This document shows positions 23,861-41,431 of a DNA stretch of 42,202 bases, in pieces (the first letter of the stretch is position 1; every line of letters begins with the position of its first letter). A model generated the notes under the pieces. That model ran no database searches and had not been told where the DNA came from. It saw only the letters and a program-made list of their open reading frames with translations. This DNA is from Phycisphaerae bacterium. GTDB taxonomy: Bacteria; Planctomycetota; Phycisphaerae; UBA1845. Location of the stretch: positions 1-42,202 of the forward strand of contig JAJDDP010000060.1 in NCBI GenBank assembly GCA_029260235.1, given 5' to 3'. The translations under genes and the position numbers were made by a program.

Positions 23861-24148
23861 TCAGGTGATTTCATTAGTGGCGTTGGTGTTGAATTTGACG
23901 GCTGCGTTGACCCCGTTGAGTGCCAGGGCGTTGGCTGTGTTCAAATTGCCCAGCAGGTCCATGTTGTAGCCGGTGTCGATCTGGCTGGAAGTCACCAAGC
24001 CCGAGAGCATGATGCCCTTGTCCATATCGGTAAGCCGGTCGAGCTTGTCGTAGGTGTAAGCCTCCGAAAGCCGCTTGCGAACAACATCCTCCTTCGAGGT
24101 CCGGTTCCCGTTGCGGTCATAGGCGTACTGGGGGCGGACAGAGCGAAT
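23861..24148 (-). pseudogene. RHS/YD-repeat remnant (fragment 2)
   Basis: Reading leftward from 24148 to a TGA at 23861-23863 gives 95 codons with clear RHS/YD-repeat character: YAYDRNGNRTSKED, SEAYTYDKLDRLTDMDKG and a terminal ATNEIT. Intact RHS proteins are very long beta-cage shells; this is a small internal piece without a start or shell. Its frame is continuous with the small membrane ORF upstream, whose TAG (24149-24151) directly precedes it. It lies just upstream of TMTC copy 1. Confidence 0.75.
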
Positions 24149-24355
24149 CTAGGCGACATACTTCAGACACAGCATGCCTAGGAAAGTAATGGCTAACAAC
24201 CCGAGCAAAAGATAGAGGCGCAATCCGTTGCGTGGCTTTTGACTGGAGGGATCCTTCTTCAATTGGATTAAGTTTTCAATTACTGTTCCTACCCAGACTA
24301 CGCAAAGAACGAGAAAAAGGTACTCTCCAACGGCATATATCCAACCTAGCAACAT
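24149..24355 (-). CDS. Small two-helix membrane protein
   Basis: A 68-residue protein starting at the ATG at 24355 (MLLGWIYAVGEYLF). It has two hydrophobic helices (about 4-26 and 44-63) separated by a polar Lys/Ser/Pro loop (QLKKDPSSQKPRNG). Its start overlaps the end of the preceding small ORF by ten bases, suggesting coupled translation. It sits inside RHS debris, where immunity or accessory genes often collect, so an orphan immunity role is one possibility; no homology is recognised. Confidence 0.5.
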   Translation of the reverse strand: MLLGWIYAVGEYLFLVLCVVWVGTVIENLIQLKKDPSSQKPRNGLRLYLLLGLLAITFLGMLCLKYVA

Positions 24356-24681
24356 GATACCACCCGCTCGGGAGCTACATATGTAGTCTGAGGGAGACAA
24401 TTGATGCTGTCAGCAGTCTGTCTAACGCCTATCGATAGCGACCCCGGCAGTGTCCACTCATACTCTGAAGCACATTGGCGGAACGCTCGGGCAGGATCCT
24501 CCATGCTTGGTTGACATAGGCGTAGCTGCTGAACGAGAACCGCCTCATGCTGGTGGCGTGGCGCAGTGGCCAGGAACCAAACACTAACGCAGATCGCCAG
24601 GATGAACAGCCACTTCAACAACAGGCGCAGTCTGCGCCCGTTGCGACGTCCGGATTCTTCATTGCTTTGCAGTCCTGACAT
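24346..24681 (-). CDS. Small single-helix membrane protein
   Basis: A 111-residue protein with an Arg-rich start (RRNGRRLRLLLK), one membrane helix (WLFILAICVSVWFLA, about 24-38) and a ~70-residue outside part with four cysteines. The ATG at 24681 has AAGGAAC 5-11 nt upstream, a good ribosome site. It overlaps the next small membrane gene. Both lie between two RHS remnants and so were probably carried in with the RHS element. I do not recognise the family. Confidence 0.55.
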   Translation of the reverse strand: MSGLQSNEESGRRNGRRLRLLLKWLFILAICVSVWFLATAPRHQHEAVLVQQLRLCQPSMEDPARAFRQCASEYEWTLPGSLSIGVRQTADSINCLPQTTYVAPERVVSCC

Positions 24682-28292: not shown

Positions 28293-29978
28293 ATGAATAC
28301 CACCGCCGCTAAGTTCGATATTGGCACACCTCGCACCGTCCATGCACCCCGTGGAACAGAAAAAACATGCAAGACCTGGCAGGCTGAGGCTGCTATGCGC
28401 ATGCTGATGAACAACCTCGATCCGGAGGTCGCCGAAAAACCGGACGAGTTGGTCATCTACGGCGGCTCGGGCAAAGCAGCCCGCTCATGGCCTGACTATG
28501 AGCGCATTGTGGCTGCCTTGATCGCCCTCGAACCCGACGAAACGCTGCTGGTGCAATCAGGGCGGGCAGTCGGCGTGGCCAAGACCCATGCCGATGCTCC
28601 CCGCGTGTTGATTTCCAACTCCATGCTGGTACCTGCCTGGGGCAATTGGGACGAGTTTCGCCGGCTCGAAGCACTCGGCTTGACCATGTACGGCCAGATG
28701 ACAGCCGGCAGTTGGATCTACATCGGCACCCAAGGCATCCTGCAAGGCACCTACGAAACATTCGGCGCAGCCGCCCGCAAACACTTCGGCGGTTCTCTCA
28801 AGGGCAAGCTGATCGTCACAGCTGGCTTGGGCGGGATGGGCGGCGCTCAACCGTTGGCAGCCACAATGAACGATGCGGTTTGCTTGGCTGCGGATGTTGA
28901 CCAACAACGAATCGACAAGCGGCTGAAGGATCGCTACCTCGACAAAGCCACAACATCGATCGACGAAGCTTTGGCCTGGATCAACGCGGCCCAAGCAGAG
29001 CAGCGGCCATTATCCGTCGGGCTATGCATGAATGCAGCCGACATGCTCGAAGAGCTAATCCGAAGAGACGTCAAAGTCGATATCCTGACCGATCAGACTT
29101 CGGCCCACGACGCCTTGGACGGCTACGTTCCGAACCGAATAGCCTTCGACCAAGCCGTCGCTTTGCGGAAGAGCGACCCCGAGAAATATGCCCAAGAATC
29201 CATGCGTACCATGGGCGAGCACGTCAACCACATGCTTGAATTAAAGAACCGCGGGTCCATCACCTTCGATTATGGCAACAACATCCGCGGACAGGCTGTG
29301 CAAGTCGGCGTGGAGAATGCGTTTGACATCCCGGGCTTCGTCCCTGAATACATCCGACCGCTGTTCTGCGAAGGACAAGGGCCGTTCCGCTGGTGCGCCC
29401 TTTCAGGAGACCCAGCCGACATTGCCCGGACCGACCAAGCTGTGCTCGAGACCTTCCCCGAGAACGAGCACCTCTGCCGATGGATCAAAATGGCCGGTGA
29501 GCAGATCGCCTTCCAAGGCTTGCCCTGCCGGATCTGATGGCTGGGCTACGGCGAGCGCGACAAGATGGGTCTGATCTTCAACCAACTGGTAGCTAGCGGT
29601 GAAGTCAAAGCGCCGCTGGTCATCGGTAGAGATCATTTAGACTGCGGATCCGTCGCTTCTCCAAATCGCGAAACTGAGGGCATGAAGGATGGCTCTGATG
29701 CCATCGCAGATTGGCCTATCCTCAACGCCCTGCTCAATACTGCCTGCGGTGCAAGCTGGGTGAGCGTTCACCACGGCGGCGGTGTCGGCATCGGCTACAG
29801 CATTCACGCCGGCCAAGTCATCGTCGCCGACGGGACAGCCGAGGCTGCCGCACGATTGAAGCGTGTCCTAATCGCCGACCCGGGCACGGGCATTTTTCGG
29901 CATGTCGATGCCGGATACGACAAAGCCAAAGATATCGCCCGACAGCGCGGTGTCCACATCCCGGGGATCTCCGGGTAG
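28293..29978 (+). CDS. hutU: Urocanate hydratase with in-frame UGA at active-site Cys
   Basis: Urocanase (EC 4.2.1.49) hydrates urocanate to imidazolonepropionate in histidine degradation, using tightly bound NAD+. The reading frame encodes 561 positions, the normal family length, including YGGSG (56-60), the [13 protein letters not shown]-binding loop (178-187) and the C-terminal [16 protein letters not shown] block. It is broken by a single TGA at 29535-29537 (codon 415), within LPCRI-UGA-WLGYGER. In homologues this codon is the conserved cysteine (Cys410 of Pseudomonas putida urocanase, reported to be essential). The frame continues for 146 fully conserved codons to TAG. UGA stops translation elsewhere in this window, so selenocysteine, a nonsense mutation or a base error remain possible. 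Start is ATG 28293 with AAGGA eight nt upstream. Confidence 0.9.
29535..29537 (+). other. In-frame UGA, candidate selenocysteine codon
   Basis: TGA replaces the TGC/TGT expected for the conserved cysteine of urocanase. Both sides are in the same frame (28293 and 29978 are consistent modulo three), so no frameshift is involved. Cysteine-to-UGA replacement at a catalytic position is the usual signature by which bacterial selenoproteins are recognised; a single-base error cannot be excluded from this sequence. Confidence 0.6.
29562..29578 (+). promoter_or_regulatory. Candidate bacterial SECIS-like hairpin
   Basis: Starting 24 nt after the UGA, AAGAT (29562-29566) and ATCTT (29574-29578) pair around a 7-nt loop GGGTCTG. 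The distance fits the usual position of bacterial SECIS hairpins, and the loop contains GGUCU, similar to the loop in the E. coli fdhF element. The stem is only 5 bp and mostly A-U, and the bases also encode the conserved KMGLI of urocanase, so chance is a real alternative. Confidence 0.3.
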
Positions 29979-39650: not shown

Positions 39651-41033
39651 CTAGTCGACCGGATCGAACCGGGCCTGGAAGAATCGCAGATACTTTGGCT
39701 CGTAGGTGAAACGCAGCCCTTTGATTTGATCTCTCTGGTTGTAGACCGAGATAATCGACTCAGCAGTCACATCCATGTGTGCCTGCGTATACACACGTCT
39801 CGGGATGGTCAATCGAACCAGTTCCAACGAGGGGAAGAGGTTTTCGCCGGTCTTGGAATCTCTCCCAGCCGACACCGCGCCTCGTTCCATCGACCGTACT
39901 CCTGAATCCAAGTACAGAGCGGCGGTTAGAGTCTGCGCGGGGAATTGATCCCGCTGGATGTGTGGAAGGAATTTGGCGGCATCTAGGAACACGCCATGCC
40001 CGCCTATGGGTCGGACCACGGGGATGCCGGCCTCAATGAGTTTGTGACCCAAGTATTCAACCTGACCGATTCGAGAATGCATATGATCGAGATGCACGGA
40101 TTCTCGAATGCCGATGGCCAGTGCTTCCATATCACGACCAGCCATGCCGCCATAAGTCTGCAGGCCCTCGTACACCACAACGAGATTTCGAGCTTGGTCG
40201 GCCAACTCGTCGTCGTTCAGGGCCAAGAAACCGCCGATGTTGACCAGTGAGTCTTTCTTGGCAGACATCGTGCAGCCGTCGGTGCAATCACAGATTGCCC
40301 GAAGGATCTCACCCAGCGACTTATCCTGCTGCGCCGGTTCGCGGTACTTGATGAAATAGCTGTTCTCAACGGCACGCGTAGCATCCAAAATCACCTTGAT
40401 ACCGTGCTTATGGCACAACGCGCAGGTCTGCTCGATATTCTCAAGGCTGCAGGGCTGACCCCCAGCCATGTTGACGTTGGTTTCCAAGGAGAGGTATGGA
40501 ATACGATCCACCCCTACTTCGTCGATGACCCGCTGCAACTTGTTCAGATCTACATTCCCCTTGAACGGAAACTCGCTTTCTGAATCATGCGCTTCATCAA
40601 TAATCACGTCCGTAAAGCGCCCCCCAGCCAATTCCTGGTGTAGCTTCGTGGTCGTGAAATACATGTTCCCAGGGACAACATCACCCTTACGAATGCAGAT
40701 TTGGCTAAGAATGTTTTCTGCTCCGCGACCTTGGTGCGTGGGGATGAGATGCCGATAGCCGTAAATGGATTGCACGGTTCGTTCGAGGTGGTAGTAATTC
40801 TCTGAACCGGCGTAGGCTTCGTCGCCGATCATCATGCCTGCCCACTGTCGATCACTCATCGCTGACGTGCCAGAGTCGGTCAGCAAGTCGATGTACACCA
40901 AGCGGCTGGGCAGGAGAAAAGTGTTGTAACCCGCGTCCGCAATGGCGGCTTTGCGTTCAGCGTGGGTAGTCATGGTAAGGTGCTCAACGACTTTGACTTT
41001 CCACGGTTCTGCCCATGATTGTCGTGTGACCAT
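39651..41033 (-). CDS. tpl: Tyrosine phenol-lyase
   Basis: A 460-residue PLP enzyme that splits L-tyrosine to phenol, pyruvate and ammonia (EC 4.1.99.2). It follows the phenol-lyase rather than tryptophanase sequence through most blocks: GYNTFLL, YIDLLTDSGTSAMSDRQWAG, GDEAYAGSENYYHLERTVQ and NMYFTTTK. The KK pair at 259-260 (SAKKD) holds the PLP lysine, probably the second. The GVRSMERG block keeps the arginine that in Citrobacter phenol-lyase contacts the tyrosine hydroxyl, where tryptophanases have Ile. The ATG at 41033 has GGAGGAG seven nt upstream, a very strong ribosome site. It is a single gene, converging on ogt. Confidence 0.9.
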   Translation of the reverse strand: MVTRQSWAEPWKVKVVEHLTMTTHAERKAAIADAGYNTFLLPSRLVYIDLLTDSGTSAMSDRQWAGMMIGDEAYAGSENYYHLERTVQSIYGYRHLIPTHQGRGAENILSQICIRKGDVVPGNMYFTTTKLHQELAGGRFTDVIIDEAHDSESEFPFKGNVDLNKLQRVIDEVGVDRIPYLSLETNVNMAGGQPCSLENIEQTCALCHKHGIKVILDATRAVENSYFIKYREPAQQDKSLGEILRAICDCTDGCTMSAKKDSLVNIGGFLALNDDELADQARNLVVVYEGLQTYGGMAGRDMEALAIGIRESVHLDHMHSRIGQVEYLGHKLIEAGIPVVRPIGGHGVFLDAAKFLPHIQRDQFPAQTLTAALYLDSGVRSMERGAVSAGRDSKTGENLFPSLELVRLTIPRRVYTQAHMDVTAESIISVYNQRDQIKGLRFTYEPKYLRFFQARFDPVD

Positions 41034-41431
41034 CAAAAAACTCCTCCAGAATCAAAAGCCAGGCTGGGTAGCGAATCGTCACCCATACGTACAGCCGCGT
41101 GCCTGCAGGAATGCTCAAGTCGCGTTCTGCGCGCCCACAGCCGTTGTCAGAGGCCTAGCAATCGGCGTTCCCCTGGAGGCTGGTGCGTAGAATTATCCGG
41201 CCATCCCGGGCGAGGGCACGCCATCCTCCTCCGACCAAGCGCTGGCTTTGTCGATCCTTGTAAATGCAGCCAGGATTGACCTGGGTGCGGGCATCAGAGT
41301 TTTGGGAATCAGCTCAGCCATGTGGACGGCTCCAAAGTGGAAGCCTAGAATGCCATCGTGGTGGAAGTTTGATTTATCAGCCCTAATGAGGGTGGAACTT
41401 AGCGGGGTCGCTAATCCCTTTGGAGAAGAAA
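41034..41431. other. Divergent intergenic region between tpl and trxA
   Basis: A 398-nt region holding promoters for tpl (leftward) and trxA (rightward). It includes the tpl ribosome site (41041-41047) and the trxA ribosome site (GGAGAAG, 41422-41428). Short open frames here lack ribosome sites and are on overlapping frames. I see no tRNA, riboswitch-like structure or large inverted repeat. Confidence 0.45.

Follow-up and report, generated by a model that had tools for sequence, protein, structure and literature searches.

The window analyzed here, by which we mean the whole 42,202-nucleotide stretch of contig JAJDDP010000060.1 from a Phycisphaerae bacterium (assembly GCA_029260235.1), contains a urocanate hydratase (hutU) frame of 561 codons plus a final TAG (28293–29978, + strand). 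Translation bears out the description given in an earlier note on this DNA, in which the complete frame is interrupted by a single TGA (29535–29537, + strand) and then continues in frame for 146 codons (29538–29975, + strand). The TGA is codon 415, the position of an invariant active-site cysteine; a TGC codon for cysteine 412 (29526–29528, + strand) would together with it form a CxxU motif, and a candidate SECIS hairpin lies a short distance downstream.

A urocanase gene with TGA at the active-site cysteine codon

The read-through protein matches the NCBIfam hutU profile TIGR01228 with 916.2 bits (cut-off 375) over profile positions 1–544 of 545, and the three Pfam urocanase domains over 127 of 127 (N-terminal), 209 of 209 (Rossmann-like), and 195 of 196 (C-terminal) positions. 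The Pseudomonas putida urocanase (PDB 1uwl; 557 residues) aligns without gaps to residues 16–561. The window protein is thus like known HutU proteins (PDB 2fkn, 1x87, 1uwl) over its full length, and differs from them in having TGA where all readable related loci and the four PDB sequences displayed have cysteine. The closest urocanases among the matches listed are 78–79% identical and come from the same family, and in a tree of 42 urocanase proteins the window gene groups with two family members, L033 and L034 (support 100/98), such that the contig fits the Sec-decoding family discussed below.

Codons were read at 105 related urocanase loci, one of which (L021) is a fragment, leaving 104 that are readable and, with two duplicates removed, 102 that are distinct. 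At the position of codon 415, 88 of the 104 readable loci have TGC and the other 16 have TGT (104/104 cysteine), and residue 415 is likewise cysteine in the four PDB alignments displayed from 11 matched sequences, so that the invariant cysteine invoked in the earlier note is well founded. Codon 415 aligns to position 411 of the 1uwl chain, which we take to be Cys410 of the P. putida enzyme, assuming that the start methionine is not counted in that numbering. The active-site cysteine of HutU is therefore not encoded as cysteine in the window gene, which shows the arrangement by which selenoproteins are recognized: an in-frame TGA at a cysteine conserved in homologues, with conserved sequence on both flanks.

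The remainder of the gene is intact. Of the 182 alignment columns that are invariant in 41 relatives, codon 415 is the only one at which the window protein differs; with the 29 family members alone there are 258 such columns, and it differs at four of them (counting the stop), where relatives examined in the same way differ at 0 to 4. The 146 codons 3′ of the TGA have not decayed, and this together with the conservation elsewhere means that a truncation, if real, is very recent or an artefact; the same conservation would also fit a very recent change or a base error. Cysteine codons in close relatives, which the earlier note had set against a selenocysteine reading, are indeed present at all 104 loci, but with the nearest relative just 79% identical they show a change in one lineage and do not decide between selenocysteine and mutation.

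Cysteine at the position equivalent to 412, giving a CxxC motif, is found at 22 of the 104 readable loci, or 20 of 102 once the duplicates are dropped; in a smaller sample it had seemed rarer (3/41 relatives). The CxxU that C412 would make is a mild pointer toward selenocysteine as judged from the sequence, and a CxxU motif recurs in Table 1 of PMC13188914. The cysteine at 412 is present at enough loci that it is not rare, and its frequency counts against the selenocysteine reading.

A search of the genome gave no further hutU, and we have rejected the idea that the window gene is a dispensable copy beside an intact one. An unbroken hutH gene (616.3 bits) lies on a different contig, so that histidine breakdown looks functional as predicted from gene content; this counts in favor of the selenocysteine reading. 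Among the relatives, the hutU genes of L174, L175, and L177 contain short in-frame insertions, some of them repetitive-looking (e.g. CGTGFQPVDCGTGFQPVGF in L174), with the frame remaining open.

Selenocysteine-decoding genes and a candidate SECIS hairpin

The assembly comprises 5.28 Mb in 231 contigs and is 94.9% complete with 1.1% contamination. Its tRNA-Sec gene (L001:1500-1596, − strand) scores 64.9 bits (cut-off 47), with ARAGORN in agreement, and lies on a 6.6 kb contig; one end of this contig stretch resembles what we take by eye to be the 3′ end of a 23S rRNA gene. The selB gene (363.7 bits, profile positions 1–579 of 581) is directly upstream of selA (462 bits), and selD (371.2 bits, contig C87) has an in-frame TGA of its own in the context SCAG-U-AGKL. 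The entire set of tRNA-Sec, selA, selB, and selD, whose absence the earlier note had named as fatal to its reading, is thus present in the genome. In 14 known control genomes the cut-off was exceeded by tRNA-Sec in five and by SelA, SelB, and SelD in two each, and the tRNA-Sec model taken alone is not fully specific (5/14 against 2/14 for SelA). Selenocysteine decoding in this genome, and generally in the family, is well supported by these gene predictions, and planctomycete Sec genes are already on record (PMC4807772).

The selD gene is the only other selenoprotein gene identified in this genome. No internal stop is present in the FdhA (TIGR01591) matches listed for the bacterial family, which leaves selD as the sole gene usable for a SECIS comparison. 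In six family genomes (L069–L074) there is a TGA-free selD-like match within a longer open frame of 741–807 codons, and four of the six also carry a TGA-containing selD.

The in-frame TGAs within hutU and selD, and nothing more, could be taken to indicate that this organism uses TGA as a sense codon. TGA terminates 11 of the 26 window genes that were checked, however, and is an ordinary stop codon here; a change of genetic code, which the earlier note had also excluded, is therefore rejected as exceedingly improbable.

The hairpin downstream of the hutU TGA, AAGAU[GGGUCUG]AUCUU (29562–29578, + strand), is weak, and has a 7-nt loop that starts at +33 (the U of the UGA being 1) with GGU at loop positions 2–4. 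The region at the selD UGA could be read in 23 of 30 family loci, the other seven being the six TGA-free paralogues and L076, which was missed by the pattern; 20 of the 23 have a 4–6 bp stem and a 7-nt loop with GGU at loop positions 2–4, starting at +35. The selD gene of this genome thus resembles hutU in having an in-frame TGA at a conserved Cys/Sec site and a GGU-containing hairpin with a 7-nt loop, but its hairpin is the stronger (−3.2 versus −1.5 kcal/mol in the same 7-nt-loop form, and −6.5 for the best selD fold), and a single in-frame TGA in selD is common to 46 of the 51 family genomes, whereas that of hutU is found in one.

A similar hairpin (at least 5 bp with G-U allowed, a 6–8-nt loop, and a start at +29 to +41) follows 80 of 13191 TGA triplets (0.6%) in 391 kb of the genome. 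Despite this low frequency the hairpin loses weight, as a loose version (at least 4 bp) is present in 12 of the 104 cysteine-encoding urocanases and a strict one (5 Watson-Crick pairs and a 7-nt loop) in three, with L056 having the same stem and geometry; it is in part a by-product of the codons for KMGLIF. The motif was also picked after it had been seen, and we rate it as modestly in favor of selenocysteine. The region 3′ of the hutU TGA folds no better than shuffled sequences (z +1.1 to +1.3), and no Rfam family matched the window.

Chance stops and the search for further TGA urocanases

The main rival to selenocysteine is that an assembly base error or a recent nonsense change turned the cysteine codon into TGA, such that the real gene encodes an ordinary cysteine urocanase or has been lost in this strain. 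There are 176 one-step nonsense paths in hutU, of which 10 are Cys-to-TGA changes, three fall at the cysteine codons that are invariant in the 41 relatives (26, 359, and 415), and one is at codon 415. That the stop should fall by chance on the one catalytic cysteine, and in a genome that decodes selenocysteine, speaks against mutation or error, as do a hairpin resembling that of selD at almost the same spacing (+33 versus +35) and, with 22 of 104 loci sharing it, the cysteine at 412.

Broken genes do occur in this assembly. In the 522,344 bases sampled outside the window, two other conserved genes have one in-frame stop each: mgtE, broken by a TAG at L116:4325 (contig C36), with TIGR00400 matching across the stop (300 bits versus 232.75), and a response regulator-Hpt gene, broken by a TAG at L119:10259 (contig C87), with Hpt matching across the stop (27.9 bits versus 24.6). 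Both of these stops are TAG rather than TGA, which again counts against mutation or error as the source of the hutU stop. The scans covered 564,546 bases of the genome, the window included, with 86% of planted stops passing the scores; about 40 upstream codons are needed, so that stops lying as close to the gene start as the one in selD fall outside their reach. One scan yielded 40 rows and another, which had no antisense-frame filter, 88; on sorting by eye nearly all were taken to be a gene end beside a gene start or a frame opposite a gene, and the HMM checks covered mgtE and the response regulator-Hpt gene.

Extrapolation gives about 20–23 broken genes per genome, a figure that rests on two events and has a wide error, such that anything from a few to many tens would be compatible with it. 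In the sampled frames, 2374 of the 49639 one-step paths to a stop (4.8%) are Cys-to-TGA changes, and about one such break is expected per genome; at invariant cysteines the expectation is a few tenths as a rough estimate, taking about three in ten cysteines to be invariant as in hutU. These figures make chance or error a serious competitor rather than a remote one. The earlier note had judged a chance hit on this codon unlikely, but with two other single-stop genes in 0.52 Mb and no second TGA urocanase found in the searches the claim is too strong.

Further urocanases with UGA at this codon, which the earlier note had proposed to look for, were found neither in the family, nor in the phylum, nor among the class matches listed, nor in IMG/VR. 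Pattern searches gave no TGA urocanase in the 50 other genomes of the family (51 searched) or in the 391 other genomes of the phylum (392 searched); these patterns demand certain flanking residues, so that variants could escape, and their scope is this phylum. At the class level, where 168 of 397 genomes have a match, there was none among the matches listed. Eight pattern matches in IMG/VR included no urocanase recognizable by tblastn at a meaningful score, and a protein scan gave no relative there. That no relative read has TGA at this site favors mutation or error.

The kept and conserved downstream frame would also suit low-level read-through in which a near-cognate tRNA for Trp, Cys, or Arg decodes the UGA, or the use of a 414-residue short form with a regulatory role. 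Either is improbable, as no relative read has such a stop; most residues inserted by read-through would probably spoil a site that is cysteine in all relatives, and the sequence suggests no second function for the short form.

A search of open-license PubMed Central papers, a set that does not include preprints, gave no report of a selenocysteine urocanase, in keeping with the earlier note, which knew of none; in most of the papers that name both subjects, the two terms belong to unrelated passages. Three selenoproteome papers (PMC13188914, PMC12013277, and PMC9312934) have no occurrence of the stem 'urocan' in their main text.

Selenocysteine or a recent stop in hutU

The Sec machinery, the exact site of the TGA, the conservation of the gene, the geometry of the hairpin, and the CxxU motif point toward selenocysteine, whereas the restriction to a single known case, a hairpin that is weak and shaped by coding, an enzyme that is not a redox protein, and the rate of nonsense breaks point away from it. 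The insertion of selenocysteine proposed in the earlier note is partly supported: it gains from the presence of the machinery and from TGA at a conserved cysteine, and loses from the rate of chance breaks and from the finding of no second TGA urocanase in the genomes searched. We regard the evidence as evenly poised on whether hutU encodes a selenocysteine-containing urocanase. The fuller proposition, in which the catalytic residue was switched in a single lineage and a CxxU pair could tie histidine breakdown to redox state or selenium supply, falls a shade short of even, and a recent nonsense mutation or base error is a substantial possibility that sits somewhat further below the halfway point. 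These gradings are judgments from rough priors and not computed probabilities.

If hutU does encode a selenoprotein, then SelB with Sec-tRNA would read the UGA at 29535–29537 as selenocysteine, with decoding guided by the hairpin at 29562–29578. Translation of the UGA, the SECIS role of this hairpin, and any function of the selenocysteine are inferences, in contrast to the frame, its TGA codon, the conservation, the Sec-decoding genes, and the UGA at the Sec site of selD, which are observed. The predicted product would be the full-length 561-residue enzyme with U replacing the active-site cysteine and with C412 and U415 forming the CxxU pair, and it would have originated when, not long ago, a single lineage within an already Sec-decoding family exchanged cysteine for selenocysteine at this site. 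As a guess, C412 and U415 might act as a thiol/selenol redox switch, or the selenocysteine might simply provide a more reactive active-site residue.

Such an origin would agree with the trend described in PMC1794560, in which Cys-to-Sec switches tend toward organisms that already decode selenocysteine. Of the 17 switched families in that account, 15 are homologues of thiol-redox proteins, and PMC13188914 describes prokaryotic selenoproteins as mostly redox proteins; urocanase is a hydratase and not a thiol-redox protein. A selenoprotein predicted from one genome has counterparts in PMC12013277, where three of nine new families lack TGA homologues, and a singleton therefore has precedent among predictions; TGA-containing homologues lend support to a bacterial selenoprotein but do not define one. 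The three (a DUF523 protein, an FDH3 beta subunit, and a hypothetical protein DF) are like the window hutU in having bacterial cysteine homologues, a SECIS-like structure downstream, and no TGA homologue reported elsewhere. They are unlike it in belonging to Desulfosarcina and Desulfosediminicola, where one of the genomes carries no fewer than 46 selenoprotein genes, against selD as the one other such gene identified here.

Were the selenocysteine reading true, hutU would represent a new family of bacterial selenoproteins in an unusual enzyme class, to be added to a tally in PMC13188914 that stands at 119 families and subfamilies of prokaryotic selenoproteins. It would also be an early-stage Cys-to-Sec switch, confined to a single lineage and with a barely formed SECIS element. 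Selenocysteine would be placed in a hydratase with unusual chemistry, and the natural substitution would make the role of the catalytic cysteine testable. Urocanase uses NAD+ as an electrophile. Were the TGA a base error, it would serve as a warning for selenoprotein prediction in draft genomes, in that a Sec-decoding host, a conserved cysteine, and a loose hairpin can coincide.

Elsewhere in the window, a short frame with a YDRNGNRTS-like sequence, presumably of the Rhs type, follows a membrane-like stretch on the − strand (23864–24409), with an in-frame TAG at 24149 between the two. At 39651–41036, also on the − strand, lies an uninterrupted frame for tyrosine phenol-lyase, which scores 734.1 bits against a cut-off of 720.7.
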